A stretch of 64,000 nucleotides of DNA from Paramacrobiotus metropolitanus (Eukaryota > Tardigrada > Eutardigrada > Parachela > Macrobiotidae): the NCBI RefSeq assembly GCF_019649055.1, contig NW_026570221.1, forward strand, positions 2,542,001 through 2,606,000. Reading direction: 5' to 3'. The translations under genes and the position numbers were made by a program. Position 1 is the first letter of the stretch. Every line of letters starts with the position of its first letter. The notes under the pieces are model-generated. The model saw nothing but the letters and a program-made list of their open reading frames with translations. It made no database searches and was not told the origin of the DNA. Shown here one piece after another: positions 14,450-37,431 of the stretch.

Positions 14450-15035
14450 TGACGTGTGGGAGTAGGATCACACGCCGGGATGTACGTACGGATGCTGACT
14501 GTCCGCCTTCCACCTGCAATATAACAGATAATCTAGTCAATCTATGCTGTGATTTGCTGTTCTCTTTTACTAGCGGTGTATGTGATGTCATAACGCGTAG
14601 TCTATATAAGTTCTGGTTACTCCTAAAATCGGCAGCAGTCACTGATCAGTAGTCTGGGATTTGCTTCTGAGACTGCTTGCTAGTTACAGTTTCCTTGTGT
14701 TGTGGACTACGAAGTGTATTAATATAGAGACAGCAATACTTGTTCCTACGGAAGTGCATAGTCGTTCCCGGATTATCGCTTAGTATACAGGTTTGCTCGT
14801 GACACAATCGTCCTGGCTCTTGTTGAACCTCGTAGAAACTGCGACCGGAGATTGCAGCTGGACTCTTCGTTAGGGATTCCTGAGTTCCTGGGTTCCTGAG
14901 TCGTTCGACCTATTTCCATTGTAGTTTATCTGTTACAGTTTGAGATAAGAGTTGCCTACCGACTGAGCATTACAGGCGTGGAAGAGTAAAGATTGTTCAT
15001 GGAGCCCTAACCGGCGTGAACGCTTATACACGACA
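14450..15035 (+). repeat. 5' LTR of the giant element
   Basis: 586 bp, TG..CA. A TATATAA box at 14603-14609 is the likely core promoter, with a TCAGT initiator-like element some 35-50 bp downstream. Confidence 0.93.
14603..14609 (+). promoter_or_regulatory. TATA box in the 5' LTR
   Basis: TATATAA in the context CGCGTAGTCTATATAAG. It is the only clear TATA in the LTR and is conserved at 36999-37005 in the 3' LTR. Confidence 0.6.
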
Positions 15036-15052
15036 TGGCGCAAACCGGTGTC
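15036..15052 (+). promoter_or_regulatory. Primer-binding site of the giant element
   Basis: TGGCGCAAACCGGTGTC begins directly after the LTR's terminal CA, as a minus-strand primer site should. Its complement ends in GCGCCA, consistent with a tRNA 3' end. I could not assign the tRNA. Confidence 0.65.
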
Positions 15053-15788
15053 TTTTAATTTTTCCCGATGTAACAGAAAATTATTGGTGGAAAGTTTGGT
15101 GGTAATTTACTCTAAAAGGGGTCCGTACAGAAAGGCGTCGAACCGCAAAGGTGCGCCGAAGGAGGTCAGCGTTCCAGATCTGGCCTAATATAATTTATTT
15201 TGGCGAGCTTCCTCGCAAACGTGAGCTTCCTCACTGGTGAGCTTCCTCGCCAATTAAATTTAAATTTAATTAAATCGGACCGTAGGAAAACAGTCGAAAC
15301 CTTAAAGGTCGGCTGTGTGAACTAAGCGGTGTTTTGTGGGTAACTTCCGGGTTGTCTGCGCAAAGCAGCAACTGCGGTGAATAAACGGTAAATTGCGGTG
15401 TCAGTGTACCTGGCCTGCAGATAAATCAGATAGTAAGCTCTGAGCCACTGTCAGTGGCCAGGTAAGATAACGATCTCCAGCAGCTCGATAAAGGCAAGCC
15501 GCAAGCGGTAGCCAAAATCAGCAGCTAGAGATAGTTGATCGTGAAAAGGTAAACACCGGCAAACGGTGATTGACCTGTGAGTTAAGATTACGGCAGCACG
15601 CAAAGTGCAGCAAAGTAATTTTAGCATTTAGTTTTTCAGTCAAACCGCAAAGGTTGGCTGTGATTAATTTTCTACTAAACGGTTCAAACCTCAAAGGAGG
15701 ACTGTCTAGTGGAAACCGAATTGCACAATCGCAATATCAGAGTTTTACGGGAAACAGTAGCACAATAGTTACTGTACGTACCGTAAGA
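15053..15788 (+). other. Leader of the giant element with iterated motifs
   Basis: A motif close to GTCAAACCGCAAAGGTTGGC recurs at about 15137, 15293, 15639 and 15683. A second motif, GAGCTTCCTC, occurs three times within 15205-15250. Such iterations upstream of gag are candidates for packaging, dimerisation or translation-control structures. The reading frame is open back to 15570, but ATG 15789 (MSNPENKNK) lies after the last motif and is my preferred Gag start. Confidence 0.5.
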
Positions 15789-18700
15789 ATGTCCAATCCA
15801 GAAAATAAGAACAAGGCGCTAAGCCAAGTTCCAGAAGATAAGGTTATACAAGGTCCATATGAAGGCGCGGCGACGCAAACCAGGTTTAAATTCAAACCCG
15901 ATGAAATACCGTTAGGTTTGATGTATTTCGCACTCAATCTGGAACCACCCAAAGGTTCCAGAGCTTATTGTGGTAAGACGTGGGTAGATTTCCAGGAGTT
16001 GGGGAAATCGGTGGACCCAAACAAAAGGGCACCCTTTTACTACAATGGATGGTATGAGACTGAACGGTGTATTCCAGAAGCCTACCTGGATATCACTGAT
16101 GAACAGTTTAATGAAGCAGTTAAAAAGGCTTACAAGTGGTTACCTGAATACAAGAAAAACATGGAAGATCGTAGAAAAGCGGCCATCGTTGCGCTTGAAG
16201 CAGCTACAAAAGTTGGAATAAAACCAAAGGAGTCCGTTTCTGACGATCGACCCAAGAGAGCGGTGGCGGCAAAATCGAAAACTACCGAGAATACAGAACA
16301 AATTACTCGTAGTGAACCAAATACAGAACCGCTTAAGCTCGTAGAGCCACTTTCAGAGGAAAGCCTCTTTAACAAGGAACAACCTCTTCCAGATTTCGAT
16401 ATGGATGAGGATAGCCGATCAGAGGATGATACGCCCATTCACATGGCGTTTGGTGAAAATGCGGATATAGCTCCGGAAGCATCTGCAAGAAAGAAAAGTA
16501 TCACGGGGGGCGGGATGTCTTTTCACCCGACACAATTGAAATTACATGCGTTTGTTTCGGAAAAAGACTTCGAACAACCTGATGAGGAATTTCTGGCTAA
16601 GGCAAAGGAAGTTGATGAGCTTCTAGCCCTTACACAAACCGATCAAGATGTGGGATTAGTCGCCCGGAAGACGATGCCCGTGCTGCTCCAGGGTCTGCGG
16701 ACATGGATCGCAACTACGAAATCAAAAGTAGACGAAATGGGGAACTCTATGTCCCTGGACGCTCGTGTGGATGCAGAACGTAATCTGAAATTAAAATTTC
16801 AATCAGATTACAACGAAATGCGTATTAAATTTGAAAATGAACAAACCGAAAATGATCGCCTGACAAACGAATTGCGTATTGCGGCTGATAATCTGTCTCA
16901 GTCAAGAGATGCTGGTAGAAACGCACAAAATGCTCTTAATGCTATGAAAGATGAGCGTGATGGATTAAAGGATGCAAACCGGCATTTGGAAAAACAATTA
17001 GAGGAAGCACAGAGAGAGCTGTCGGCAGCGAGAACTACTATCGACGGCTTTAAAGCCCAAACACTCCCTGATACGGCGAAGCAGGTTGCAGATTTAGACC
17101 AGAAATTATCGAAAGCACAGAGGGATTTAAGTGCGGAAAAAGATGCGCACAAGTTGACCAGTAAAAACTTAGCGGATGCGCAAAATTTGTCCCAAAAGCT
17201 TTCTAAGGATCTAGACGATGAAAAGAAGCGCGCTAAAGATAGAGAGGATACCCTGCAGCGGGACCTAACTAAAGCAAATATACAGCTTAACAAATTGTCT
17301 ACGGTTGGCCCAATGCATATTCCTAAGGAAAAGGATGAGCAGTCTCAAAAAGAAATTGAACGGCTCGAAGGATTACTGGATGCCGAAAAGGAGAATAATC
17401 GCAAAGTCCAGAAGGAACTGAGCGACATTAAAAATGATAAAAAGTGCGCAAATTGTGAGAAAGCGATGCAGGCGAAGAAGGAAGCACAAGCCGCCGCCTT
17501 CGAGAAGGATCAAAACTGTAATCGACTATACGAAGAAAACAAGCAGTTGCGAGACGAGTGGTACGAAAAGCAAGATCAGCTTACCAAACTGGAGGATGAA
17601 TTTAAACAAGCGTGCAGTGAGCTCCTCCAGTTCAGAAATGCAGACGTTGCTCTTGGAGGAGGTCAAAGACAGTTTCAAAGGGAAGCCCCAGTAGCGACAG
17701 GAGATGTGTTGCGGTCCACTCCGCTTTCCCTGTTTGACCCCCAGAACTTTTCGGCGTCTAATGAACAGCCATCAGCTGCTGTAATTAATCCGGCTGGCAT
17801 CCTTCGGAAGCCCAGACAGGAATCACGAGTGGGATTTCACGAGACACGTTCGTCTTCGGAAAGTCAGGTTCCCAAGGAGACGGCGTCACTTATTCAAAAG
17901 AAAAATCGGTCAACAGATTTGCGGCAAGAGATATTTAAAAGGGCGTCCGATGACGTTAGTCGCCATGTGCGCAAATCGGAAAACAGGGACGGTTCTGATA
18001 TTGAAAATGATCTGATGGATGATATGCTGGCCGATGACGAACACCGCCGTCCTAGTAGTACAGCCAGTAATAAATCCACTTCCAGAAGCACACAATTGGA
18101 GGAATGGTTAATCAAGCAAACGCAAATATCGGATAGGGCAGCGCTTACACAAGAATGCGTTGTCGAATTAATCTCGAAACTTGCGGACAAAGGAAACGAT
18201 AAAGCCGAAGGCAGTATGAAATTACTTACCTTCGACGATTCCCATCCAGAAAAAATCCAGAAGTGGCTTATGAATGTTGAGCAATGTCGAACCACGAATA
18301 ATTGGAACGATGAGGTTACTTGTCGTAGAGTAACTGGTGCTTTCTCTGGAGCATCCTTCCAGTGGTTCGAAAGATTCTGGAAAGACAATAAAGGGAAGTC
18401 ATGGTCTGATTTCTTTAAACCGGCAATTATCGAGCATTTTAATGGCTCATTATCTAAAGCTGACATTCGTAGGAAAATGAATAATCGCAAACTGGATATT
18501 TACGAGCCAGTTCGCGCTTACCTGGATAGTTTCCTCCCATGGTTCGAGGAGCTAAAAATCTCAGATGAAGAGCAAGTTGAAGCGCTCTTGGAGGGTGTAC
18601 AAGATCACCGGCCAGCATGGTTCAGGGAAATCTATAATGCGTCACCCAAGAATTACTCAGAATTTGAAAAGAAACTCCAAGATTGTGAGAAATTGTGGAA

Positions 18701-21700
18701 ACGGATGAATAAAGATAAGAAAGCTCCGGAATCGACGCAGAGAAGCGCACCCACAGAACCGAGAAGTGCTGGTAATAATAATAATAATTCGAATTACGAA
18801 AGTAGAGGCAGCCGCGGTGGCTTGTCCCAAAGAGGAAATTATTACTCGAATCGGGGAGGTCGTGGAAATTACGGGAATACCCGCGGAGGGTATTCCCGTT
18901 CATACACTGAAACGGTGATTCCACAGCAACAAAATCCCGCGGCTCCAGTGCAGCCTGTCCTGACTGTGCCCCAGCCACAGTTCGTCCCGGTCCCGGTATA
19001 TCAGCAACCGCAATTTGTCGAGCAGCATCCAGTGCCATTTGCGCAGACGTTCCAGCAGCCCATTCCGATGCAAGCTGCTATGCCAGTCCCTGTACAGATG
19101 ATGAATCCGATGATGCCGGTTATGCAGCCGCAATACCAGCAGCCGGCCCAGAATTTCGATCCGCAGTATCAGCAGGATGGTCCTGTAAATAATAATAATA
19201 ACGGCGGTTATAATCGTGGGAATTACCGCCCAAATAATAATTATCGTGGAAACAATAACCAACGTGGTGGTTTTAATAATCGTCAACAAAATCAAAATCA
19301 GAATTACCGACAAAATCAGCAGGCTGGTAGCCAGCCCCCGTTTGACGAGCGGAATATCCAGAAAGAAAAATGGCGAACAAACCGCGGTGTTGAGATTTGT
19401 TTCCGCTGCCATGGGTTACATCCGGCAGCAGGTTGTACGAATCAATTTGTACTTCCTCGTCAGTATGAACCGTCCGCAGAATTATTGGCGAAATACAACA
19501 ACCCTCAGCAGCAAATTAATATGATGGAGTTAGACTTACCAGCTGGTTTGTCTTCCCCGACGCCTCAGTGTAATAAAATGGAAGTCCAGGACTTTTCCCA
19601 GTATCCGCTGGCGGATCATGTATGTCTGCTGCCCACGCTTGATGCGCAGGCTTGGTACTCGGTGATCGATATTAATTACCAGAAAGTAAAAACAATGCTG
19701 GATACGGGTTCTAGCATTTCTGTCATGTCTCTAAAAATGGCGAAGAATTTAAATTTAAATATCCATCGCTGTCCTGATCATATTAAAGGTAGAGTTGTTC
19801 ATACAGCTTACCAGGGAAGACAGTTAATCGAGCCGCTTTCGGTTGTTGTCACAATCCATGAATTTGGCATGGCTTTTGAACACGCAATACTGGTGAGTTC
19901 TACCTTCGACAGGGATCACGTTGTTTTAGGTTTAGACTTTTTAGCCACAAAACCATTTGTCCTTGACATGAATACGATGACGTGGCGTCTTTCGCGCAGA
20001 CCGCCTGGTGCACCGGCATTTTTACGCCGCGAGACTCACCTAATGTCGGACGTAATCCGGTCGCATGATTTTGATCCTTTAATTCCTCCGGGAGTTAAAC
20101 CGTCTCCTTTAATTCCGGCGTTAATGTTGACAGAACGCATTGGCGTCGCTAAAGAAGCAAAATTCGTGCCATACGAATCTGCACATTTAATTTTGGCAAA
20201 AGCCGATCCAGAGATCTGTATCTTACACTTACAGAAAGCCAAACAGTCATGGCCTCGTCCAGTTCAGCTGCCACCAGCAACAAAAGTGGCCGATGTCACG
20301 GTGAAAGCGGAAGTCAAAGAAGTAATGCCTGCACAAGCGGCACCGTTCAGGAAAGGATCCGACCAACGTGATGAAGAGTTTGTGCGTAGTGTCGTTCAGG
20401 AAATGATTCGCCAATATCTCCCGAAAGCGGCTTCCGTTGCTGACGAACCAGTTAAACCTGTAATTAAAAAAGAAATCAACACGGAGAAAAACCCAGAACC
20501 AAGTCAAGTTCGTGGGGGAGGCGGTGTAATAATTGTACATAATATGCAGTCAAGTTCGTGGGGGAGAGAACAGGCGTCTTCCCAGCCGCAAATTAAGCAA
20601 GAAAAAGTCTGTCAGCCGTCGTTGGCAAACAATTCAAGTACCTCGTCTCCGGTATCGGTCAGTCCCGTGCCCAATTCTGGTTCACGTCAAGTTCGTGGGG
20701 GTGACGATCCCTTGCAACTTCCGATTCAGATTTTATCCTTGAACGCTGTGCTACAACAGCACCCGGCAGCAAAATATTTGTATATGGGCGTCCTAGAAAA
20801 ATCGTCTAAATCAGTGGAATGTCTCAGCATGGACAATAAGCTTCTAAACGTTATACCTGTTGAGCGTGACCGCAGAGACGTCGATGAAGTCCACGATTAT
20901 CCGTCCTACATGGCGCGGAATCCCGAGTTGAAAAGGTGGATGTCACCGATGGATCGGCCGCAGGATAAGGGCCTGTTTCCTACAGAAAAAAGATTTAGAG
21001 ATCCTCAGTTTTGGAGGGAAACTCAACAGATGTGCGTGGACAGCCGTATGTGGTACAAAATGTATAAGAAGCCATCGCATGCAAATACCAATTACACTAA
21101 ATACGAAATTAACCGGATGATAATTTGCGAAGGAATTTTGTGCAGAGTGCCTGATCACTCTGGTGCGTGTCCGAGGATTTACGTGCCTTATCAATGGCGA
21201 CAAAAGCTGATAGCCTGCTTTCATGAAATCTTAGTCCATAAGCAAGCATACGGTCCCTCTGAGAAACTGTATCCTTATCTAGTTAAATTGTTCTATTGGC
21301 CGGATTGTATAATTGAAATCGAGCGCTATGAAAAGAATTGCGATGTATGTCGTAGTTCAGTAAATGATCGGCGGCATTTTGAATTAATTAAACGAAAGGA
21401 ACAACTTCACGCACAGAAAGCAACTGGGAAACGTAAGGTTACCTTTTCGCAGGATAACCCGGCACCGGCAGGTGAATTTGAAAACGGCAGCTTTATCCCA
21501 GCCGACAGCATGCGGCCCATTGATATTGGTCCTTGTCCGGTTTCCTACGAGGATAAACAGGCGGAGAAGCAAAGAGTACTTGCTTCTCAAACTCTTGGTA
21601 ACTCACCGCAAGAATATGTGCTAACGAGTCAACACATGTCGGATTTAGTACCTCCGGCTGTCAGAGCGACATACGATACGCCTACGAATGTAAATACTAA

Positions 21701-24700
21701 CGAACAGTGGGCAATCTGGAACGAAATACAAAAACAAAAAGCGTTGAGAGAGTCAGTGGGAGTTAATACAGCACAACCCACCGTGGGAAATGACGAACAG
21801 GTATCGGAGGGCTCGGGAAGGAGTTCGCCCCGGCGCAAAAAGTCCAGTTATAGTCGACGAATTAAACGCGAATATGCCGAGCGCGAAGCTGCAACGCAAA
21901 TGTCCGCTGAGACAGTGCAACCCCCTCTGGTGCAGCAACCAGTGGCAAAAAACTTACCGAAACGGTCACAGGATGTTCGTGAGTCCACGGAGATCCCTGC
22001 ATGTGTGTACACAAAGGATGTCATTGAGCTGGCGTACAGGGACGCCCACCTGAAACAAGCCAAAGCACAGACGGAAATCAATTCGTTAGAACAGGATATC
22101 TGTCGCTTCGAGCCAGAGCCCGGCCCTATCGATTGTTTTAAAATGGAGCTATTTCCGGCTTCACCGGTGGTTATCCAGCCCCATTCGCAGGGAATTATTC
22201 GCGCAACGACGTCCATGTCTGATGAACAATTCATGGAGTTCCAGGACGAGTATTTATACACTCAGCCATTTCTCTACGAAGGAAAAATACCCGAATCGAA
22301 TAAAAATGCGGTATTACTGGATGGCGTTTTAACGCTTAACGAGTACGGTAACTGTCGGGTTTGCGTTGTCAACGTTTCTGACAAACCACTGGTTTTAAAC
22401 GAAGAGACTAACCTTGGCGAAGTTGCGCTTGTTGATGCTGTGTATCAAATGGACTCCCTGGAGTTCCAGAAGAATTACCACGATGAGTCCTGTAATGTTT
22501 CACGCGATGAGAAAGGCGTCCCAGTCCCGGAGAAGATTAGTGAATGTGCTGCAATGCAGTTACAGCCTTTCGCTCCAAGCGCTGTCGATCCTGAAACTGA
22601 AGAAACGTTCGTCAAAATTAAAGTGGGAGATATCTGCCCTAATAAAGAAGACCTTAAACAGATCTTCTATCAGGCAAAGTCTGTGTTACCAACGAAAGCT
22701 CGCCCAGTCGGATGTTGTACTATTTATGAGCACTCGGTGGACACGGGAACGAGTCTGCCGGTTCGAACTCCTCCGTATCGCACATCGTTTGAAGATAGAA
22801 AATGGCTCCAAGCTAAAACACAAGAAATGATCAAGGATGGAATTATAGAACCGACTAATTCGGCGTGGGGAAGTCCTATTTTTATAGTAAAAAAGAAGGA
22901 TAAATCTCGTCGACTAACTGTTGACTTCCGTAAATTAAATGAGCGGTTAATGGGCAGTAGCTATCCTTTGCCCAGAGTGGATGATATTCTTAATGCGTTA
23001 GATAAAGTACTGTGTTTAGTAAAATCGATTTGAAGAGTGGGTTTTGGCAGATAAAGATTAAGCCGGAAGACCGGTGTAAAACAACGATGGTCGGAGAAGA
23101 GTTTACCTTTCAATATAAAGTCTTACCGTTTGGTCTGAAGGATGCGCCTTCTGCCTTTCAGCGTGCAATGGACTTGACGCTTGCGAACATGAAATGGAGG
23201 AACGTTCTTGTTTTCATCGATGACATTATTGTCTTCAGTAAAAACCTAGCGGATCATATCCGGGATTTGCAGGAGCTTTTTCTGAGGCTCCAGGAATGCG
23301 GTTGGACCATTAATCCTGAAAAAACTGAATTATTTGTTAACTCAATAACAATTTTGGGACACACTGTAGACCAGTTCGGTATCAGCACAGACCCAGAGAA
23401 GATCCAGGCCGTGAAGGAATTTGGCCCTATAAAAGATAAGAAGGACATTTTACGCTTTTTGGGCATGGTAGGATATTATCGTCAATTTATTAAGAACTTT
23501 CAAGAAATTGCTGAACCGCTTCAAAAGTTGATTCCGAAAAAAGTTACCTTTGAGTGGGGAACAGAACAGTGCAGAGCTGTGGAGCAGCTGAAGGAGGCCT
23601 TAGTGACGGCGCCGGTTTTGGCCCGTTATGATCCAGAGGCTTTATCCCGTGTTGTGGTGGATGCCAGCACTATCGCTGTTGGCGCAGTACTTATGCAGTG
23701 CCCGCGAGACACGCCGACGGATGTGCCGACGAATTGGAGACCTATCGCGTACCTAAGTCGCAAATTAACCGAGACACAGAAAAGGCTTTACTTCCCTACA
23801 GAACTTGAAGCTTATGCAGTTATTTGCGCGTTAAAGAAATGGAAACACTACCTGTCGGACTACCAGTTTGAAGTCCAGACCGATCATCAAGCGTTGGTTT
23901 TCCTGAATAATATGCGCGATGCCGCTGGCCGTCTTGGGCGTTGGGCACTATATATACAGCAGTTTAATACTAAACCGGTCCACATTCCTGGAAAAGATAA
24001 CGTTATCGCTGACGCTTTAAGCAGAAACCCAGGAGAACAACCGGAACCCGACTCTGACGATTCTGATATTGAATTTGATTATCGGCAAACTTACCCTTTT
24101 GCCGGTGATGCAGCGATAATTGAGTGCTGTTGTGCGGTTTTGGAAAGTGATTACGCCGATATCCGCTTTGAAATGATGTCGGCCGAAGTGAAAGCCATTT
24201 CTGAAGAGGACATGAAAGCCTTCGATGCAGATAAAGTCCACAAGTTGATTACGGACGATAAAGCCTCGTATTGGGCGGAAGAGCAGTCTCGTGATGCGCG
24301 CATTGTCCGTTGGAGGTTGCTTCTAGAAAACAAAAAGGAAAAGATGTCAGAGCACGAGCAATTACATCTAAATAAATTTGTAGTTAAGCAAGGTGTTGTA
24401 TATTATAAGTTCGAATTAAACCGCAAAATCTATTACTGTATGTACGTCCCCGTGCACTGGCGTTTACAGTTCTTGCAGGACAATCACGACTCACCTTTAG
24501 CCGCGCATTTAGGCGTTTTGGCTACTTACAAACGCATGTACAAGTACTTCTATTGGCCACGGATGTTTGAGTCGGTCAGGAATTACTGTGCATCCTGTGC
24601 GGCATGCCTTGCTCAGAATGTCCCCGCTACAGCTCCGGCTGGCGCTTTGCAGTCAAACCCAACTGTTCCCCCTCGATTGGTATGGGCAATCGATGTCGCC

Positions 24701-25975
24701 CCGGCTCTTCCAACGACGGAATCTGGAAATAAAAACATAATTATTGCAGTTGACTACGGGAGTAAATATATTGTTGCTGAAGCAGTCGAAAGAAATGATG
24801 CCGCTACCTTGGCATTATTCTTTTACAAAAGGATTTTAACAGTTTTTGGAATGCCGATACACATTACGTCGGATCGTGGCAGTAATTTTATGTCAGAAAT
24901 GTTTCGAGAGCTTCTCGCTCTCGCAGGTGTTGCTCACGCACCGACAGCGTCAGGACACCAACAAGGTAACGGTCTTGTCGAAAAACGAGTAGGAGAAATC
25001 AAAAAGGCGCTAGCGAAATATGTTAACGAGCAACAAAGCGACTGGGATATTTTCCTCCCGGCACTTTGTGCTGCGTTTAATAGCAAAGTCGTGGAACGCA
25101 CGGGCCGCACACCATTTTTCATGATGCACGGCACTGAGATGCGCTTACCAGTAAATAACTTCCTCCCTTTTGAGGAAGACTTTGTTGTTCCCGCTCACGT
25201 TTATGTACAGCAGATGCAGCGCGGCCTTGGAGAGGCTTTGGATTTGGTAAACGCAGAGGAATTTCGCCACAAACTAAAAGATAAAATCGGTTATGATGCG
25301 AATGTCTCGCATGTTATTTATAAAACCGGAGATCAGGTCCTTGTGTACGTACTTCACAGAAAGGTGGGTAAAAATCCATCTCTTATGCCCCGTTGGACCG
25401 CCGGATGGGAAATTGTTCGCCAGTCAGGACCAGTCCACTATGTAGTTAAAAGTAATCGACGCGGGAATGTCAAAGTTGATACAGTTCACGTTAGTCGTTT
25501 AAAGCCCCATAACTTCCGTGATGTTGATATTATTTTACAAGATGAACATTTACCTAAATTGCTTGATTGTGTGGAGAAGGAATGTCCTGATGAAATCGTT
25601 GAGGCGCCCGCGCCGCCGCCGGTAATACCTTCACCGGATACGGCATCGTCGCCACTGGATGCGGATTATGCAAAGTACTTGGATGATCAGATGGACAAAG
25701 TTCCGTTGTTGAAGACCCGCTCTGGGCGTGTGGTCAAGCCGGTGGAGAGGTTCATTAATGAAAATAACGACAAAAAACGTAAAAGAGATCCATCGGTGGA
25801 TAATAAAAAGAGAATGACAACTAATGGTCGGGATCCGCTAACTCTGAATGTATCCCAGCCTGGGGAGAATAATCCCATACTGCCTGAAACATCTGCAAGT
25901 AATACACTGATTACTTGTAATGCTATGGAAATCGTGCTGGTACAACAAATGGAAATCCTCCAGTACCTGTGGTAA
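15789..25975 (+). CDS. Gag-Pol coding region of the giant element (fossil; about one break)
   Basis: About 10.2 kb encodes, in order: an N-terminal region; a long coiled coil (about 16790-17650); a Gag core (about 18190-18720); an Asn/Gln/Gly/Arg-rich tail (about 18770-19330); a CX2CX3HX4C knuckle (about 19395); an aspartic protease (about 19650-19960, DTG at 19701); an integrase-type zinc module (about 20940-21370); a pre-RT region; reverse transcriptase; RNase H; and integrase with a C-terminal GPY/F-like domain. Gag and Pol appear to share one frame through the protease, so a single polyprotein is suggested. Length is about double that of a typical gypsy gag-pol, mostly because of the coiled coil and the linker between protease and RT. 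Confidence 0.9.
16790..17650 (+). other. Gag N-terminal coiled-coil segment
   Basis: About 290 residues of heptad-like, charge-rich sequence (for example LKDANRHLEKQLEEAQRELS) with almost no proline. Ty3/gypsy Gags usually lack so long a coil, so it may set multimer size or bind host cytoskeletal or motor proteins (inference). Confidence 0.7.
18190..18720 (+). other. Retrotransposon Gag (capsid-like) core
   Basis: Residues around KLLTFDD.HPEKIQKWLMNVE, FQWFERFW, WSDFFKPAIIEHF, and YLDSFLPWFEEL..SDEEQVEALLEG follow the retrotrans_gag pattern of Ty3/gypsy elements. Confidence 0.75.
18770..19440 (+). other. Nucleocapsid-like Asn/Gln/RGG-rich tail with zinc knuckle
   Basis: Runs of N, G, R and Q (RGNYRPNNNYRGNNNQRGG) flank a Pro/Gln/Val-rich block, then CFRCHGLHPAAGC forms a CX2CX3HX4C knuckle. 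Low-complexity RGG tracts suggest RNA binding and possibly condensate-type assembly (inference). Confidence 0.7.
19650..19960 (+). other. Retropepsin-like aspartic protease domain
   Basis: MLDTGSSISVMS (DTG at 19701-19709) is the catalytic loop, and VVLGLDFL is the second conserved strand of retropepsins. It lies between the knuckle and RT, as expected for gypsy. Confidence 0.85.
20505..20706 (+). repeat. Three internal copies of the 3' polypurine-tract motif
   Basis: CAAGTTCGTGGGGG occurs at 20505, 20551 and 20688. The third copy continues as GTTCGTGGGGGTGACG (20691-20706), identical over 16 bases to the junction of the 3' polypurine tract and LTR at 36835-36850. They lie in the linker between protease and RT and are translated as QVRGG or as SSWG. 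Confidence 0.85.
20940..21370 (+). other. Extra integrase-type H2C2 zinc module, copy 1
   Basis: QFWRETQQMCVDSRMWYKMY, then IYVPYQWRQKL.., HEILVHK.., LFYWPD.., NCDVC. This is the pattern of the integrase N-terminal HHCC domain and its leading helix, but no catalytic core follows. It sits between protease and RT, outside the normal integrase position. Confidence 0.75.
22780..24020 (+). other. Reverse transcriptase and RNase H region
   Basis: SRRLTVDFRKLN, FGLKDAPSAFQRAM, VLVFIDDIIVFSK (FIDD active site) and FLGMVGYYRQFI identify Ty3/gypsy RT. RNase H follows with VVVDAS.., ELEAYAV, QTDHQALVFL and VIADALSR. Family placement is strong; integrity is covered in the gag-pol entry. Confidence 0.92.
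24230..25560 (+). other. Integrase with zinc domain, DDE core and GPY/F-like tail
   Basis: The zinc domain (MYVPVHWR.., HDSPLAAHLG, YFYWPRMF, CASCAAC) is copy 2 of the module found also at 21 kb and 26 kb. The core shows AIDVAP, ITSDRGSNF and GNGLVEKRVGEIKKAL (a D,D,E arrangement). The tail GDQVLVYV..PRWTAGWEIV..VHVSRLKPH is of GPY/F type. Confidence 0.9.
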
Positions 25976-26005
25976 CTTCAGAAGAGCCCCGGCTTGGGCG
26001 TCATT

Positions 26006-26452: not shown

Positions 26453-26786
26453 ATGGCTGAGCGGCCGTGTAAACTTGTACATTTATTTTATTTTTAAATT
26501 TTAAAGATTGAAATTTTATGCCTCAATCTATTAATTACCTGGAAAACTCCCAAAAATTGTGTGTACGTACAGTTTGAGCGCGCGCACTCGCCATTGGATA
26601 GTCTGCGGTGACGTAGCGTCGTTGTTTCCATTTCGAATGCTGCTGGTTGAAGTTGCGGGAAGGTAGTTCAAAGACGAAATTTATCTCTGTAAAGTCAGTG
26701 TTATTTAATCGCCGTTCTTGGTCTGGTGCGAGTCTGCTCTTAATCACACTGACTTTACGGCTTACGATTAGTGGCACTCAGTCGAA

Positions 26787-27602: not shown

Positions 27603-28151
27603 CCGTATATGAGTTTTTATCAGCATTATATTCTTCTTATAGAAGGCTGTATAAGCTTCGGTTATTCTAGTTTAAATGATTCGTCCTTTCGTTTGAAGCT
27701 TTTGTATAGAATTCGTAGTTCTTAGCTTTAGTCTCGGCCTTTTACCAGCATTTACATGCGTTGTTACAAGGATTCAAATTCTTAGTAGTGTCTTGCGTAC
27801 CCTTTTTGTATTCGATCGTGAGATCTCTCCGTTGTGAAATAAATCCAATCGCAATCCATTTCAGTCCTGATCTAACAGTATAATTTAACTTATTTTCATG
27901 GAAACATCGCAGATATGGTCGAAAAGAATTTACTGGGTTTAGAAAAACAAATTAAACTTTCAGGGTTTCACGTGTAAACACGTTGGATATGGGTGTCGTC
28001 TAGCAACCGCCCGTATGTCGTCAAATGTTAGGGCAGTGCCACTTTGGGGCGCTCAGCTGTTTCCGGTTGTTGCAGTGCGTCAGCAGTTTTCTTGCTTTAA
28101 CTCGTCAACATCATTCATTCTTCCTTATCTGATTCTTATTACCTAATTTTC
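27603..28151 (+). other. Spacer between accessory genes A and B
   Basis: It holds an AATAAA (about 27838) following ORF A, then a GC-richer stretch (about 27990-28080) just before ORF B that is plausible as a promoter or 5' UTR. I see no coding content. Confidence 0.35.
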
Positions 28152-28949
28152 TTGTTCAATATGGAGATGGAATTTTATAAAAGTGAGCGTGGGCGCATGA
28201 TCTGTGCGGAGCAGGATGAAAAGAAGCGCCGTAAGTTTGTGGAATTCTCTGATGTGGTGTCGTACTTCACGGTGAACCAGGAACACATCGTGAAGTTTGT
28301 TTACTTTTGGCGTTCTCTGGTCGCTCCCTATACCTCTATTAAGGAGCTGTGTAAGCTGTCTAACTCCGAAATCATGGCCTTGAACTTTGCAGAAGTTGAG
28401 CCATCGGATTTTGAGGCTCAGGTGGCTTTAGCCATTGCGGATATTCGCGCTTCAGAGATGTTGATGTATTACGTGAAGGTGGGCTTTGTGTTGTTCCCCG
28501 ACACTCCGGTTCGCCGTGAAGCTGCTGAGCGAATCCGTGCGGAGTTCGGCTTGCCGTCTCTGCTTAATCCACCGGAATCTCCGCGTACGCGTCGCCGTCG
28601 GGAACTGGAAGAAGAAAATAAGCGTATCGAACACGATCTCTGCTGTGTGGAATGTGAGAATTATGGGCCAGGTACCTGCGGCCGTATGTTTCGGACTCCA
28701 TATGAACCACCTGTCCCGAAGCTATGGGGATCTCGCGATAGGGAGGATTCGAAGAAGCCTGCCTCAGATCTTGATGACTGGTGGGAACAGAACAAGCTGG
28801 ACATTCCAGACCCACTGAAGGTTTGGCCGGAAAATGCGTTGTGGGTGGACGAAAAACTTGGTATTGAGCAGACACCCAAGCAGAAGCGTAAGCTCATCGT
28901 TGTGCAGCGTCACTCTTTGCGTGGCATTCCTTATAATTACTGGAAGTGA
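28152..28949 (+). CDS. Accessory protein B of the giant element, unknown function, 265 aa
   Basis: Not recognised. Start at 28152, with a second ATG at 28161. Helical and charged, with PRTRRRREL and KQKRKL as likely nuclear-localisation signals, and a cysteine cluster CCVECENYGPGTC that could bind zinc. No TM segment or signal peptide. The codon choice is regular throughout, which supports a real gene. It lies in tandem with ORF A on the sense strand. Confidence 0.55.
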   Translation: MFNMEMEFYKSERGRMICAEQDEKKRRKFVEFSDVVSYFTVNQEHIVKFVYFWRSLVAPYTSIKELCKLSNSEIMALNFAEVEPSDFEAQVALAIADIRASEMLMYYVKVGFVLFPDTPVRREAAERIRAEFGLPSLLNPPESPRTRRRRELEEENKRIEHDLCCVECENYGPGTCGRMFRTPYEPPVPKLWGSRDREDSKKPASDLDDWWEQNKLDIPDPLKVWPENALWVDEKLGIEQTPKQKRKLIVVQRHSLRGIPYNYWK

Positions 28950-29560
28950 AGAGGATCGCCGTCTGTCTGCACTTTTTGAACGGCTTAAAATTTAAATTGT
29001 ACAGGCCTTTTCTCTCTAAATTCCTGCCGTTCTTTCTCTGCGTGTTTAGTTGATCTCCGGATGTGGCATCTTTGACGTGTATAAAGGTAGTGACGCTGCA
29101 TCTTTAATGTTTAAACGAGTGATGCTCTTTCCCTACAGTGTGATCAAGCTGCATGGTTGTTATGGCTTGTCTTTTTCGTGAATCCTCTTGTGGCCAAATG
29201 ATTTTGCCCGTCTTCATAGTAATTTTGTAGGTTTTAAATGATACTGGAAAACAAATTGAAATTATTGTTGTAGCGTGCCGTTGGTACATATTACAAACCC
29301 TAATTTGACGGGTGTATATTGCTCGAATATACCCACTCTACTGAACATGCTGACAGAATCGGAAAGTGTTGCTGCACCTTCTGCTATATACGCACTCTGC
29401 CGTAGAGTCGCGTACGGTAGTTTTCACTGCACTACATTCTCTCGTATACTGAATATCTCCCAGCTCTTGTTCTCCTTGTTTTGGTATTTATTTCCCTTAA
29501 ATCACACTGAATAAGCTCTTGTTCTGTTTTATTGTCATTTCTGTGACAATCTCGTTCACT
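28950..29560 (+). other. Spacer between accessory genes B and C
   Basis: T-rich DNA with no supported coding region. Confidence 0.3.
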
Positions 29561-29743
29561 ATGACTCCCCCTGCATGTGCGCAGAAGGAAGCGGCCAATC
29601 AGGCGCTGCAAAACCGTGTTTCGGAATGGACGGCATCTGTTGCACAGAAGATGGCTCTACGCACTGAAGCCCAACATCGCTTCGAGCGGAAGAAGACTGC
29701 TGTCAAGGAGGCCGTCTCCAAGCTTCCGCTAAAGAACCCGTAG
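29561..29743 (+). CDS. Small basic helical protein C, about 60 aa
   Basis: From ATG 29561: MTPPACAQKEAANQALQNRV.., a single predicted amphipathic helix rich in Lys, Arg and Ala, ending KLPLKNP. The frame is open further upstream (29519), which would add a hydrophobic N terminus, but the later ATG gives a compact helical product. AATAAA at about 30077 follows. Unknown function; it could be an RNA-binding or regulatory peptide (inference). Confidence 0.35.
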   Translation: MTPPACAQKEAANQALQNRVSEWTASVAQKMALRTEAQHRFERKKTAVKEAVSKLPLKNP

Positions 29744-30787
29744 TGTTTCTTGAACTTAATGGAGTCTCGGACTGGGATTCGGTCCTTCGTTGCTTCAGTA
29801 TGGCAAACATGTGGATGTTGTGGCTCTAGTTTCTCGAGCTCTTAGTTTTTACGCTAGGTATTCAGTTGTATTCCGGCTGTATATCCCTTTGCGATCTCAT
29901 GTTTCTCGGGTCTCTTTTAGATATTTATCTTTCGGGTTGTCCATATAGCTTGTGTCAGTTTTTGTTTTGTTATGTGAGTTCCAGCTGTGCTGTTTTCCGT
30001 GTAGATAACAATACGGCTCTTGCGTTTTGTTTTTCCGTTCGTTCGAATGGTTGGCTATTATGCGGGTTGCAAATTCAATAAAATCTACGTAGTTGCCGTT
30101 TCGGCTGTTGGTCCACGAATTTTAGCTTCTGCAGCATGCAACCACACGATAGACTACTTCCGTTAATGTTCGTGCTAGTTGCACGGAGTATACTACTCGG
30201 GCGGGTAACCTACACGCAGATTATGCATTCTTGTTATGAGCAGTGGTACGTTTTAGGCGCTACAATTACCCTATGTTTTGCGTAGAGCGACCCTGCTGGT
30301 ATAGTACTGGCTCCCGTTATTGGCTTCGTGTTGGTCAGAGGTTCCAATCCATATAAAAACGCGATTTTGTAAATACACTTTCCTTTTTGGTTGTATTATT
30401 TTATGCTTTCATATTTTAGGACACGGGATTAAATAATGTGAATTATGGCCTATTCTACATTGAGAGCGACCGTTACAAAGTGGAAACCTTAATGCAGTTA
30501 ACGGTACGATATTCCGTGGCAGTAGTTTCGTCGATGCCTTGCGTGGCGTAGTGGACTAGACAAGAGGACAATACTAGGCGACTCTCTGCTAGGTCCTGGG
30601 TTCTAACCTTCTATAATTCTAAAAGTGTTTTCATAAACCTCCTTTTTTTTGGGTCTATATTTTTCAAACGGATATGCCTTATGTATTTTGTACGTTGGTG
30701 CTAATTTTATTGTAAGCATCAGTGAGCGGCGCACAATTGTACAGTCCGTGACGTTCCGTTTTGGCTATTTTTGTCGAACAAAGTGGT

Positions 30788-30891
30788 AGTGTAGTGGTCG
30801 AGTGGCCAATTTCTGTGACCACCCGGTTGATTTAAGGCCTTGGGTTCAAAACCCCCATAATTAATGCACAATTTGTTAGACCTTCTTTTTT
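30788..30891 (+). ncRNA. tRNA-like unit 3
   Basis: A box TGGTCGAGTGG (30795-30805, as in Leu/Ser tRNAs), B box GGTTCAAAACC (30843-30853), T6 at 30886-30891. The A-B spacing of 48 bp fits a tRNA. The T stem is only partly paired, so it is tRNA-like rather than a normal tRNA gene. Confidence 0.5.
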
Positions 30892-31045
30892 CGATTTTAT
30901 ATTTTTATACAGTAACATATCAATGTTTTGGTGCGCTTCCTTTAAATTTTGTCATCATAATGAATGAGCGAAGGAGTCGGATGTACGGCCGCGTAATTAT
31001 TATATACACGTTGGCGTATTTCCGGTGTCAAGTTATAATGGCGGA

Positions 31046-31153
31046 TATTCTGTGGTGTAGTGCTTAGACCGATTATCCACGCTAATCAGCTGTGGCAAGG
31101 TCTAGAGTTCAAATCCCTAAAATTAAGTTCTGTATTTTGAAAATCTTCTTTTT
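31046..31153 (+). ncRNA. tRNA-like unit 4
   Basis: A-box-like TGGTGTAGTGC (31053), B-box-like AGTTCAAATCC (31106-31116), T5 at 31149-31153. The T-arm pairs at four of five positions. Confidence 0.45.
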
Positions 31154-31255
31154 GGGTTTCATATTTTTACAATAGCACAGACCAATGCGTCGCCTATGAT
31201 AAACCTAATCCTACAATCATTTCCGATGGAAGAATTTAAAAAATTAACACCGTAG

Positions 31256-31368
31256 AACGCCGTAGTATAGTGCTCCACACTGTTGAACTACAACAATGGG
31301 CAAATTTGAAGGTTTCAGGTTCGAAACCCGGCTAAAATTAATTTGCGATTTTATACAACTCACTTTTT
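31256..31368 (+). ncRNA. tRNA-like unit 5
   Basis: B box GGTTCGAAACC (31318-31328) has one mismatch to the consensus GGTTCGANTCC. A-box-like TAGTATAGTGC at 31263. T5 at 31364-31368. The T-arm is largely pairable. Confidence 0.5.
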
Positions 31369-31788
31369 GGTTGTTATATTTTTATTCTTGCCTTATCTAA
31401 GACCCTGGCAGTCGTAGTTTAAATTCCGTGACTGCTACAAACGTACGGTTTTATAAATCCAGCGGGTATTATGCTGTGGTATTCTGTTGGATGATTTCGT
31501 AGTGTGGTGGCCGAGTAAATAATCAAGGAAATTACTTACCGAAATCTCGGGTCCACTTGTAGTGAAGCATTTGTAGTATAGCGGCTCACTTGCAGAGTCA
31601 CAAGAAGGAGCTACTCCATGCTTTTCAATAGAAATGCTTGAAATTTGTACTTACAAACCACATTTTTCGGTATTTTTGTGCCTGAATACTGAATTCAGCC
31701 CTTGACGCTCGATTTTATTTTATACACATTTATTTTATACACGACATAGCGCTTCCGGTGTCAAAGTTAACTGGGCTTCTACGTAGAG

Positions 31789-31898
31789 TACCTCGTAGCG
31801 TAGTGGCTCGGCCGGGAACTCTCGTTCTCCAACTGCTTCACAGGTCTAGAGTTCAAGTCCCTAAAGTTAAAATTGCGAATTTTGAAAACCTTCTTTTT
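31789..31898 (+). ncRNA. tRNA-like unit 7
   Basis: A box TAGCGTAGTGG (31796-31806) fits the consensus. B-box-like AGTTCAAGTCC (31850-31860). T5 at 31894-31898. It follows a primer-site-like motif by about 30 bp. Confidence 0.5.
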
Positions 31899-32527
31899 CG
31901 GGTTTATATTTTTATGATAATGTAGAATAACGTGTTGGCATTGACGATGATAATTTCGCGATCATTTCGGTTGAGCAACTTACAAGTACCGTCGTGGAAT
32001 GTCGTAGTGTAGTGCTTTGCACCGTTGAACTACTGCAACGGGGAAACTAAAAGGTATTGGGTATTGGGTAAGTCCCTCACGGTTGATTTGCATTTCCTGG
32101 GAAATCTACTTTTTCTTGTCTTATATTTTTATAATCGCTTTGAAAAGTACTGACAATAGTTTCTGGACTTGCAGAATTAAATTGGAAGAGCGGCGCATGT
32201 ATGCGTATATTCTTGAAGTGACAATGCGCATGCTCGTGTCTTCACTTGCAATCGAATGACTTCGTAGTACGGTGGCTAGGAAAGATGGCCATTCATTATA
32301 ATTACTACCTCTTTGAAGTCTCAGGTTGCATGTTGCATGTTCAGAACTTACCTTTTTCCGAACTATTTTTATGTATATTTTGGAACGAAACTATTCCAGA
32401 GAGAGATACTTAACTCCGCGACTTAACTGGGAAAAACAAACGTATAAGTTGTTCAACGCTTTACTGTAGCGATTATATATACACATGGCGCTTCCGGTGT
32501 CTAAATAATTGTTTGGAAATGTGCGTA

Positions 32528-32629
32528 GTCACGCTAGCGTAGTGGCAAGAACAGGATGTAGCCGTGCAGCTAGTTCTCAGGTTCAACTCCACGTTAAGAC
32601 CCATTTTGTAACTTATAAAATTTCTTTTT
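32528..32629 (+). ncRNA. tRNA-like unit 10
   Basis: A box TAGCGTAGTGG (32535-32545), B box GGTTCAACTCC (32580-32590, one mismatch), spacing 45 bp as in a standard tRNA, T-runs at 32604 and 32625. This is the best-formed unit. Confidence 0.55.
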
Positions 32630-33010
32630 ATTTCTTTTTGGTCTTTGCCGACGCTGATTTATGCGGATGTTGTTGTATCTTTGGGAATTAAATTTGTACC
32701 GATTACAAGTACGGTTAATTTTCTTATTAATGTACTACAGCCTAGTAATGCACAAGGTCTACGGCTAAAATTCTTTTAATTGATTTCGGCAACATTATTA
32801 CGACCGGCAATTACACTCTCTTGATAAAAATTCATGTTAAACTCAAGGGCGAGATCTGTACGACCAGCATAATCAGAAATTATATGAGCAAAGTTAGCAA
32901 AATTAAAACTCAGATCCAAAAGTTAAAATACAACCAGGATACAGGAAACACCGGCTGAATCACCAACGAATTATTTAGACAGCCACCAGAGATGTATAAA
33001 ACGCCAGAAT

Positions 33011-33574
33011 CTAATCTAAATCCACGCTTTCCTTGGCATTGTTGATGTTGGCCATGCGTTGTTCCAAAGCCTCCCGTACATACTTCACGTGATTGGCATC
33101 GGTGTACACACGCGCCTTTAAGGTGTTCACCAGTGCCTTACAGTTCTTCATGATGACCTGTTCGCTCTCCACCATCTGCAGCAGTTTATCAATGTCGTTG
33201 GTGTTGGCAATGCTCTCGTCGCCCGGTTTCTCAGCCTTCACCTTGGGCTTCTCGGTTTTTGCTGCCTTAAGCTGTTCGCCCCTTTTGGCTGCTACATATC
33301 GTGGACGGGCATTCATCTCTTTTAGTTGACTCAACGTGATAATTGGCTCTCGCTTGATCCGAGCATCCTTGTTAGAGCGGACAAGCATATTGACTCCGAT
33401 AGTGTTGTTTTTCGCTGGCTCGATGGCGTCCAAGCGCTCCATCACTCCGTCAATGATTAGCTCGACGTCTTCGCCCACATAGCCGAAACTGGCGTCGGTT
33501 ACATGTTGTTCCGATTCTGCTCGGCTCTTTTCGATCTTCAGACTGGCCATCTTCACGTCTGCAACTTGGTACAA
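33011..33574 (-). CDS. Antisense accessory protein D, 187 aa, unknown
   Basis: Charged, Lys/Glu/Ala-rich, largely helical, with a central basic stretch (AAKRGEQLKAAKTEKPKVKA) and a C-terminal helix pair. No TM segment. The strand is opposite to gag-pol. It follows ORF E (33672-34379) by 97 bp on the same strand, so they may be cotranscribed. Unrecognised family. Regular codon use over the full frame supports coding. Confidence 0.5.
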   Translation of the reverse strand: MYQVADVKMASLKIEKSRAESEQHVTDASFGYVGEDVELIIDGVMERLDAIEPAKNNTIGVNMLVRSNKDARIKREPIITLSQLKEMNARPRYVAAKRGEQLKAAKTEKPKVKAEKPGDESIANTNDIDKLLQMVESEQVIMKNCKALVNTLKARVYTDANHVKYVREALEQRMANINNAKESVDLD

Positions 33575-33671
33575 TTATGCAAATGTCCGAAAGTCAGGCT
33601 GCGTCTATTCTGCATTTTTGTGTACACGATTGTACACAGCTGACTTACAGTACTATGATCTTGAAATTAAA

Positions 33672-34379
33672 CTAGGAGCTCCTTTTTGTTATCAGTAACC
33701 GCGCAAAATACTCACTGATTGTCTGAGCCAAGGTGTCACAGAGACAACATCCGCGAATGCTACGCAGCCACAGATCAATGCAGCTGTGGACATACAGGTT
33801 CCCATACACCATCACGATTTGTTTCTTTTCCAGCAGCCGATGTAGACCGCGGTTGAACCAGTACTCGTAGTTTTCGATCTGAAGGTCGTAGGTTCCAGTA
33901 GCCCATTGCTGAATTTCTGGTCGGCTCATGGCGTAGCGGGCGTGGTAGAGAATTGCACGAACCATACACCGAAGTTTGCTGTAAGTATCCACGATTTTTA
34001 CCTTGCGGTTGTTATACACATCTTCTGCGACTTCCAAAACGAAGCGCCCGTCGCGTGCCATTTTCTTCAGTAAAATTCCAGCATTAATCGCATCTTCTAG
34101 GAAAATTTCCACACGATCGACAGTAAAGTCCGTGTGCATATCCTGTATGAACTGCTTGATGTTCGCGATATCCACATAGAAACCGGTAATATCCGCTTCG
34201 AGAATGCAGGCGTGCGCGGCTGTGTGCATAGCCAGTTGACGACGGCTTTCAGCGGTCTCGTTCTCCACAAAAGGTGCATCCATCGCAAACTGCACGGATT
34301 CTCGCGTGCGCCTTTTCCAATACCGAGCGTGTTCAATCGTATCTGTCTCTGCTGATGGTTCTCCGGGTAGTGCAGCCAT
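33672..34379 (-). CDS. Antisense accessory protein E, 235 aa, unknown
   Basis: MAALPGEPSAETDTIEHARY start, then an all-helical look (FVLEVAEDVYNNRKVKIVDT, YEYWFNRGLHRLLEKKQ) and a C-terminal cysteine pair (GCCLC). No signal peptide or TM segment. It is divergent to the ORF pair starting at 34973 across a 593-bp gap that should hold promoters for both directions. I cannot name a family. Sense-antisense gene layouts are rare in LTR elements. Confidence 0.55.
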   Translation of the reverse strand: MAALPGEPSAETDTIEHARYWKRRTRESVQFAMDAPFVENETAESRRQLAMHTAAHACILEADITGFYVDIANIKQFIQDMHTDFTVDRVEIFLEDAINAGILLKKMARDGRFVLEVAEDVYNNRKVKIVDTYSKLRCMVRAILYHARYAMSRPEIQQWATGTYDLQIENYEYWFNRGLHRLLEKKQIVMVYGNLYVHSCIDLWLRSIRGCCLCDTLAQTISEYFARLLITKRSS

Positions 34380-34972
34380 TACACTATAAGATTGGTTAGA
34401 ATACGAAATAAAATAAAGAAAGAACAGAAATAAACAAAGAAAACCGTCACCACAGAAGAATAAAATATGGTAGGGTTCTTCACTTTTGGGTTACGGAGTG
34501 ATGAACAGCTGATATTTCTTGTACTTCCGATGCGGCATTCTGTCGCTTGTCAGCCCCCTCGAGGTGTCAGTTGGCGCGGAAACTATGCAGTTTCCGGTCT
34601 ATGTTCCGAATATTTCCCAGCCGCGTGTTTTCTCTTTCCGTTTGCATTTTTAACTATTTGTTATGCGGTGCAGATGCATATTGAGGAAAATCCTAGTTTT
34701 TATACTTTTATTTTACAAATTCTCGGTCGACAAATCAGTTGAGATTTTTATTCAGTGTAGGCGCCTGAAGTGCTGGAAACTCGGTGAAATTAAGCGTGTC
34801 GCCTGTCAACCGCCAACTTGTTGGTTGCCTGAATTTCGCACTTCCGGTGGCGGTGCCGGATTAACCGTATTGCAGCCTGGTCACTTTTTATTGTGGTTTT
34901 TCGCCTTGTGCATATTTCTGCATTTTTGCCTTTTTCTGGCATCTTTCGTTCCTCGCGCTAAGAGTTGCAGAA
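34380..34972. promoter_or_regulatory. Divergent intergenic region between antisense and late sense accessory genes
   Basis: The gap between two gene starts that point apart. It contains the imperfectly repeated phrase CTTGTCAGCCCCCTCGAGG / CGCCTGTCAACCGCCAAC (34550 and 34800) and several C/T-rich blocks, but no convincing TATA. Confidence 0.35.
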
Positions 34973-35521: not shown

Positions 35522-35705
35522 CAGTCGGAATGGTACCCTGTCCAGTTCTTCCTATATTCATCTGCTTCTCATTATCGTCTACGGATTTATGTTGTACGTT
35601 TAATTATGATTAGCATTTTCCCCGTGTTGTACATTTGTAGGGTGTTTTTCTACAAATTTTATGGTGTACGATCGTTTAACGTGTGCTTAGGCTAATGGTT
35701 CGCCT

Positions 35706-36845: not shown

Positions 36846-37431
36846 TGACGTGTGGGAGTAGGATCACACGCCGGGATGTACGTACGGATGCTGACTGTCC
36901 GCCTTCCACCTGCAACATAACAGATAATCTAGTCAATCTATGCTGTGATTTGCTGTTCTCTTTTACTAGCGGTGTATGTGATGTCATAACGCGTAGTCTA
37001 TATAAGTTCTGGTTACTCCTAAAATCGGCAGCAGTCACTGATCAGTAGTCTGGGATTTGCTTCTGAGACTGCTTGCTAGTTACAGTTTCCTTGTGTTGTG
37101 GACTACGAAGTGTATTAATAAAGAGACAGCAATACTTGTTCCTACGGAAGTGCATAGTCGTTCCCGGATTATCGCTTAGTATACAGGTTTGCTCCTGACA
37201 CAATCGTCCTGGCTCTTGTTGATCCTCGTAGAAACTGCGACCGGAGATTGCAGCTGGACTCTTCGTTAGGGATTCCTGAGTTCCTGGGTTCCTGAGTCGT
37301 TCGACCTATTTCCACCGTAGTTTATCTGTTACAGTTTGAGATAAGAGTTGCCTACCGACTGAGCATTACAGGCGTGGAAGAGTAAAGATTGTTCATGGAG
37401 CCCTAACCGGCGTGAACGCTTATACACGACA
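36846..37431 (+). repeat. 3' LTR of the giant element
   Basis: 586 bp, about six differences from the 5' LTR. It contains TATATAA at 36999-37005 and AATAAA at 37117-37122, so R probably lies between them. Confidence 0.93.

Follow-up and report, generated by a model that had tools for sequence, protein, structure and literature searches.

A putative array of tRNA-derived Pol III genes inside a Ty3/gypsy-type LTR element of the tardigrade Paramacrobiotus metropolitanus

Introduction

What could a retroelement do with a row of sequences that carry the signals of Pol III tRNA genes? The question is raised by a locus of Paramacrobiotus metropolitanus lying in the window, i.e. the whole stretch of 64,000 nucleotides analysed here. 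A preliminary description had reported about ten such units and had offered small regulatory RNAs, decoys for tRNA processing and TFIIIC-bound insulators as possible explanations. Serial Pol III RNA genes have been reported for a few viruses (BLV and MHV68), and short LTR elements are known to have single Pol III promoters.

Results

The element enclosing the array

The units had been placed inside a gypsy LTR retroelement, and this held. A Ty3/gypsy-type LTR element of P. metropolitanus, 22,982 bp long (14450-37431), encloses the array and has two LTRs, a target-site duplication (TSD), a primer-binding site (PBS) after the LTR and the domain order PR-RT-RH-IN. The LTRs are 98.98% identical, with six mismatches and no gap. 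The terminus of the 5' LTR, ...CGACA, is followed by TGGCGCAAACCGGTGTC, the start of the PBS.

14450..15035, + strand: 5' LTR, 586 bp; ATAT directly before it (4-bp TSD)
15036..15052, + strand: PBS, adjoining the end of the 5' LTR and beginning TGGCGC
15570..23033, + strand: Gag / protease frame; gag-asp_proteas at residues 1367-1459, E 1.1e-6
23006..25975, + strand: RT-RNase H-integrase frame; Pfam RVT_1 2-121, RT_RNaseH 209-320, H2C2 481-538, rve 558-650
26772-27602, 28101-28949 and 29561-29740, + strand: sense accessory ORFs left of the array, without known domain
33011..34490, - strand: antisense accessory gene (ORFs 33672-34490 and 33011-33574, probably spliced), convergent on the array
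34865-35521 and 35691-36344, + strand: sense accessory ORFs right of the antisense gene, no Pfam match
36846..37431, + strand: 3' LTR, 586 bp; ATAT directly after it

After the integrase, the gene order is sense ORFs to 29740, the array, the convergent antisense gene at 33011-34490 and sense ORFs to 36344, so that the array lies between sense and antisense gene blocks as previously described. A Pfam search of ORFs 26772-27602 and 28101-28949 gave no match. Coding conservation at codon positions 1/2/3 was 0.908/0.902/0.692 in ORF 29561-29740 and 0.897/0.928/0.701 in ORF 33011-33574. The two antisense ORFs are probably parts of one spliced gene, since two annotated P. metropolitanus homologues of 404 and 410 aa appear to span both (the second part judged by eye). 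The predicted structure of the antisense ORF had a mean pLDDT of only 40 and was set aside.

Units of the array

Ten units, apparently derived from a tRNA and every one on the plus strand, were delimited at 30288-32640. Their A boxes start at 30298, 30544, 30787, 31053, 31263, 31500, 31796, 32005, 32265 and 32535, the spacing from A-box to B-box start is 42-61 bp, and the unit period is 209-296 bp.

30288..30390, + strand: u1 (class A), short tRNA-like A-B spacing; class present in 40/40 arrays
30534..30650, + strand: u2 (class J), strict A+B+T5; profile match
30777..30893, + strand: u3 (class B), strict A+B+T5; class present in 36/40 arrays
31043..31156, + strand: u4 (class H), strict A+B+T5; opens higher-order repeat 1
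31253..31372, + strand: u5 (class C), strict A+B+T5; weak central hairpin, class alifold z -3.5
31490..31673, + strand: u6, with A box and T-run but a degenerate B box; another A-box-like site at 31573
31786..31901, + strand: u7 (class H), strict A+B+T5; opens higher-order repeat 2
31995..32119, + strand: u8 (class D), profile match; B box degenerate in the window copy; class alifold z -2.3
32255..32360, + strand: u9 (class G-like by position), degenerate B box
32525..32632, + strand: u10 (class K), strict A+B+T5; short tRNA-like spacing; class present in 11/40 arrays

A triplet was scored as strict when an A box with at most one mismatch and a B box with at most two were followed by a T5 run 20-55 nt after B. 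The box consensus used in the scans is similar to the one printed in the BLV paper (PMC4267658). Six strict triplets were present in the array, none on its minus strand and none in either LTR; both strands of the remaining 61.6 kb of the window were free of them, and 1000 dinucleotide shuffles gave a mean of 0.018 and a maximum of one. A looser scan, without the T-run and with wider spacing, found nine A-B pairs in six units, against a shuffle mean of 0.37 and a maximum of six (200 shuffles). The 39 copies fetched from elsewhere in the genome included 234 strict triplets on the plus strand versus 0 on the minus strand.

The number of about ten units given earlier was upheld, but the full Pol III set was complete by the strict measure in six of them: in the window copy u6, u8 and u9 have a degenerate B box, and the A box of u1 is off the consensus at two positions. 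In the class of u8 the B boxes of other copies are canonical (median 0 mismatches, n = 34 units). Unit u6 was missed by the profile described below, and its conservation in the close copies was 0.91 in the A box, 0.76 at the B position and 0.72 in the T-run. The corresponding values for u9, also missed by the profile in the window copy, were 0.93, 0.98 and 0.55.

The three-unit higher-order repeat noted before was recovered as a match between 31098-31313 and 31842-32055, with 71% identity over 217 positions and an offset of about 744 bp. Its recognisable part covers units 4-5 vs 7-8, and the correspondence of u6 and u9 was judged by eye.

Profile search and unit classes

A profile HMM grown from seven window units recovered 8/10 window units and altogether 283 units across 40 arrays, with 5-9 per array. 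The profile built from 270 of these matches has its information in TRGY..AGTGG, GGTTC.A..CC and T5, with little elsewhere. The A core was present in 259 of the 283 units and the B core in 236. A T5 run was found 20-55 nt downstream of B in 278/283 units vs 11.6% of random linker or flank 35-mers, a figure that is partly circular because the profile that found the units itself includes the T-run. An A box, a downstream B box on the same strand and a T-run terminator after B are sequence features of a Pol III type-2 gene, and the architecture proposed for the units, together with their descent from tRNA, is supported.

Eleven of the 18 clusters into which the units fell have at least 11 members. 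The window shows the class order A J B H C H D K, and most of the distant copies show A F B D (G) E C (I); the order is consistent within each main lineage and differs between the two, and three further copies (L020, L021 and L045) are unlike both. Each position of the array keeps its own conserved body of the predicted RNA. Class G has a median of four B-box mismatches (n = 20 units), and class G and u9 keep the A box next to a non-canonical B position, for which promoter selection alone is an insufficient explanation. SINEs derived from tRNAs are dispersed insertions, each with a tail and TSDs of its own. Within the arrays, which were the regions examined, the order of the units is consistent, the ORFs on either side are the same and the units close with a T-run, which differs from the pattern of scattered insertions.

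An internal copy of the LTR-end/PBS junction

Unexpectedly, the junction of LTR end and PBS, TACACGACA/TGGCGC, recurs within the array.

31738..31761, + strand: internal copy of the LTR-end/PBS junction; 14/15 letters as in 15027-15041

The copy was found with at most three mismatches of 15 in 39/39 fetched stretches and was exact in 31; the match in the window array, at 31738, has one mismatch. Conservation at 31741-31760 was 0.95 in the close copies. In the window the junction copy lies 58 bp upstream of the A box of u7, outside the predicted transcript, and in L021 just past the last detected unit. The junction copy may be a scar left by the template switching from which the higher-order repeat arose; alternatively, it may be a second priming site.

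Conservation among copies

The array matches at least about 40 places of the genome (40 of 58 candidates scored), of which 39 besides the window were fetched, and all compared copies belong to the one genome of P. metropolitanus. Conservation was measured as mean pairwise column identity in a close set of 11 copies, i.e. the window and ten others with 74-88% pairwise identity, and in 26 distant copies. L020, L021 and L045 were left out of both sets, as were L001-L008, which repeat loci already included.

Boxes no better conserved than linkers in other copies had been named beforehand as an outcome that would refute the description; in both sets the boxes were the better conserved, and the description was not refuted by this comparison. 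The values in the close copies were 0.913 in the A box, 0.877 between the boxes, 0.900 in the B box, 0.811 after B, 0.864 in the T-run and 0.774 in the linkers. The difference between units and linkers had a p-value of 2.6e-22, which is only indicative because alignment columns are not independent. Four of 2369 circular label shifts reached the observed unit-linker difference, all of them shifts by one to four positions. In the distant copies the values were 0.949 (A), 0.906 (between boxes), 0.923 (B), 0.871 (after B), 0.939 (T), 0.834 (linkers) and 0.79-0.81 (flanks). The five T columns were 0.93-1.00 identical within 10 of the 11 classes and 0.72 identical in class I.

The neighbouring ORFs were conserved at 0.897-0.928 at codon positions 1/2 and at 0.692-0.701 at position 3, and the intergenic stretches at 0.722 on the left and 0.774 on the right. 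By this comparison, the rate of change in the unit cores is about that of constrained codon positions, with the linkers nearer to codon position 3. The linkers after u6-u9 are also fairly conserved (0.83-0.86 vs 0.70-0.76 after u1-u5 and u10), a value based on fewer and closer sequences because most of that stretch lacks a counterpart in the divergent copies L016-L018.

Deeper lineages in the genome

Most of the RT matches, of which 104 were scored among 1480 candidates, lay at about 91-98, 80-88, 60-69 and 50-59% identity, and matches of the antisense protein reached down to about 26%. The antisense-gene comparison used 93 of 125 match rows, the omitted ones being mostly short or weak pieces. 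The pattern of an A box followed by GGTTC occurred 54 times in the genome vs 0 for the reversed pattern. Altogether 46 of these sites are in the same arrangement, located 1.5-7.2 kb upstream of a match to the antisense gene, and at five of the 46 the antisense protein is only 27-35% identical. The remaining eight are without an antisense-gene match, one of them (C293) lying about 8 kb from an RT match. Judged by the pattern of A box and B-box start, such putative units predate the window's lineage, since the pattern stands upstream of antisense matches of only 27-35% identity.

tRNA descent, cloverleaf and folding

The cloverleafs had been called degenerate, and the searches agree with this. 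ARAGORN at default (bacterial code) found no tRNA and Rfam at the gathering threshold no match in the window, and none of the five weak Rfam matches at E<=10 in 29400-33000 was a tRNA. ARAGORN at relaxed thresholds gave scattered isotypes on both strands and was uninformative. A maintained cloverleaf was rejected, as the seven acceptor pairs were paired at 0.00-0.48 vs 0.00-0.54 expected, a single one being above expectation (0.32 vs 0.27). The T-stem pairs were modestly above expectation (62-74, 0.65 vs 0.49; 61-75, 0.35 vs 0.27), and the B-box position equivalent to tRNA position 57 is free to vary. With the information of the profile sitting in the boxes and T5, and the acceptor pairs at about chance or below, it is the putative DNA promoter that is kept and not the cloverleaf.

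Host tRNAs were compared as 22 distinct sequences from 30 loci fetched of 60 scored. The best match was tRNA-Val(UAC) with 13.2 bits, vs 12.3 for Thr and 12.1 for Arg, and a stretch before the B box is common to the units and the host tRNA-Val. The units likely descend from a tRNA.

Hairpins of the miRNA type were also rejected. The eight window units tested, i.e. all except u6 and u9, fold no better than shuffled sequence (z -0.9 to +1.2), and the miRNA part of the parallel drawn earlier to the TMERs of MHV68 is not supported. When the classes were folded against a column-shuffle null, classes C (z -3.5) and D (z -2.3) showed a central hairpin and the other nine ranged from -1.9 to +1.5; none of the 11 classes had a strong hairpin, and 9/11 were within 2 sd of the null. 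The units resemble neither tRNAs nor the pre-miRNAs of TMERs and BLV, because the cloverleaf is not maintained and strong hairpins are absent.

Three other structural features were considered. A stem pairing the segment after the A box with that before the B box was rejected, as only class E clearly exceeded shuffles. A small hairpin between the B box and the T-run is suggestive only, with class means of 5.26 vs 4.34 bp in shuffles and 5.03 vs 4.66 in the linker control. A self-made primer, in which the 3' end of a unit would prime at the PBS, was rejected as well, since the array has only scattered 6-mers of the PBS complement.

Discussion

The array is best read as a battery of about ten separate, compact, tRNA-derived Pol III genes (type 2, with internal promoter) in the 3' half of the element, giving distinct RNAs that would likely act in trans, to which we assign a probability of roughly 0.6. 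TFIIIC would bind the A and B box of each unit; transcription by Pol III would begin a few bases before the A box and end at the conserved T-run. The resulting RNAs, of about 100-120 nt, would no longer be tRNAs, nor would they form strong hairpins, and each position would yield a conserved RNA of its own. These RNAs would most likely act by sequence or bound to protein, to the benefit of the element. We infer Pol III transcription, the RNA ends and the function of the RNAs from the DNA: boxes, terminators and bodies are conserved together with positional identity, which argues for individual Pol III genes whose RNAs matter. Conservation between the boxes is in itself no proof of an RNA product. 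Of the three options proposed at the outset, small RNAs would agree best with the data, since conservation extends from the boxes to bodies and terminators; an insulator is possible.

The main rival, which we regard as unlikely, is a cis element in which TFIIIC or Pol III on the units acts as a roadblock, or barrier, that separates the sense block from the convergent antisense gene, the RNAs being by-products. A barrier accounts for the location of the array, flanked by ORFs that converge on it (sense ORFs up to 29740, antisense ones from 33011), and for the boxes, which are the most conserved columns across paralogous units, and it suits the multiplicity of the units. It does not account for bodies and identities: the intervals between the boxes are nearly as conserved as the boxes (0.877 vs 0.913), and every array position retains its own body. 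The near-identity of the T columns in all classes but I also counts against it, as extra-TFIIIC sites are not known to need a terminator, and the full-length genomic RNA has to cross the array. Functionless remains, whether tRNA genes in decay or a cluster of tRNA-SINEs that the element carries with it, would explain that some boxes are degenerate, that the detected units vary from 5 to 9 per array and that some linkers are conserved too. The unit cores, however, are about as slow as codon positions 1/2 of the neighbouring genes, the linkers (0.774) and the left intergenic stretch (0.722) are nearer to codon position 3, and the unit order is consistent within lineages; this explanation is disfavoured and the least probable of all.

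Two other readings were considered. If the RNAs were tRNA mimics, or acted as decoys for RNase P/Z or other factors of tRNA processing, this would agree with the tRNA descent, including the stretch that the units and host tRNA-Val have in common before the B box, and with the T-stem pairs, of which 62-74 is above and 61-75 slightly above expectation. The acceptor positions, pairing at about chance or below with 0.32 vs 0.27 at best, and the free tRNA position 57 speak against a mimicry of tRNA structure, and the decoys suggested before are improbable. Still a little less probable are viral-type miRNA precursors, in which the units would be Pol III-made pre-miRNA genes as in BLV or the MHV68 TMERs. 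Tandem genes of the same type exist there, and those of BLV lie in an LTR retroelement (PMC4267658), but the z-scores of the eight window units and the lack of a strong hairpin in any class are at odds with precursors.

The Pol III miRNA gene cluster of the retrovirus BLV, which the preliminary description did not mention, is closest in kind to the array, closer than the MHV68 TMERs, with Pol III promoters located in LTRs next. In BLV (PMC4267658), too, an LTR retroelement has several individually transcribed compact type-2 genes with A box, B box and T-run, but these make hairpin pre-miRNAs, have the terminator between A and B box and belong to a deltaretrovirus. In the tardigrade array B precedes the T-run, folding is weak, and the units appear tRNA-derived and lie in a Ty3/gypsy-type element. 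The TMERs are likewise several tRNA-like Pol III genes in a viral genome, and differ (PMC8223928) in having tRNA-like structure and miRNA hairpins and a triplicated A box in a herpesvirus; in the array a cloverleaf is unsupported and strong hairpins are absent. TRIMp3 elements (Cassandra, Helenus, Ajax; PMC10886601) are LTR elements with Pol III promoters derived from small-RNA genes. They are short and non-autonomous (Helenus 311-1263 bp) and have the small-RNA-derived sequence in the LTR, whereas the tardigrade array has many putative genes internal to an element of about 23 kb with its own gag-pol. The array is set apart from these three systems, as it is without the hairpins of the first two and without the LTR position of the third. 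Giant gypsy elements such as Burro are also LTR elements of more than 20 kb with extra coding capacity; in the review text (PMC6431247), from which the term tRNA is absent, the extra domains are largely in one huge polyprotein, while in the tardigrade element ambisense accessory ORFs flank the array. The matches listed in the open-access literature, mostly titles and beginnings of abstracts, included no Pol III RNA-gene array in a gag-pol-bearing gypsy element.

More tentatively, and at somewhat less than even odds, an autonomous, virus-like LTR retroelement may encode a whole series of conserved Pol III RNAs, each distinct and of tRNA origin, which would belong neither to the tRNAs nor to the pre-miRNAs and would represent a new class of retroelement ncRNA acting in trans; the internal LTR-end/PBS copy in each array could additionally be a second priming site aiding reverse transcription of the 23-kb genome. 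If the array is indeed such a battery of genes, retrotransposons, too, would carry private RNA genes, and dozens of natural copies would be at hand for comparison. The question then opened in the tardigrade is what a retroelement may gain from Pol III RNAs of its own.

Coding regions of the element

In the window copy, the insertion of the Ty3/gypsy-type LTR element under study, positions 15570-25975 hold two overlapping frames, one encoding gag-protease and the other RT-integrase. Among the matches listed, other copies in the genome have one uninterrupted frame at RT, reaching about 3,600 codons in length, and judged from this difference in frames the insertion in the window may be defective. 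Besides the H2C2 zinc-binding domain of the integrase itself, two further stretches similar to this domain were detected. The antisense accessory gene retrieved two proteins in the protein search, both from P. metropolitanus, and its product showed a weak linker-histone-like match (E 0.0016, below the cut-off).

Residues 1873-1929 of frame 15570-23033, H2C2-like stretch before RT (E 0.006, below the cut-off)
25976-26452, H2C2-like stretch after the integrase (E 7.5e-6)
33011-34490, minus strand, antisense accessory gene

Features within the array

Many of the tRNA-derived units of the array carry a small A/T-rich hairpin between the B box and the T-run, frequently with GC in the loop, which recurs though its stem letters vary from one unit class to another. 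The recurrence hints at a 3' feature conserved in the RNAs of the units, but the linkers between them are likewise slightly above their own shuffles.

The array also includes a copy of the junction formed by the 5' LTR end and the adjoining primer-binding site (PBS).

31738-31761, LTR-end/PBS junction copy, inside the array

All 39 array loci fetched from elsewhere in the genome retain this copy, either inside the array or at its end (at most 3 mismatches of 15), 31 of them exactly. Weaker junction-like forms were seen by eye near 31005 and 32479, and a further site lies at 36348 (2 mismatches of 15). The copy in the array is possibly an internal priming site or the scar of a template switch.
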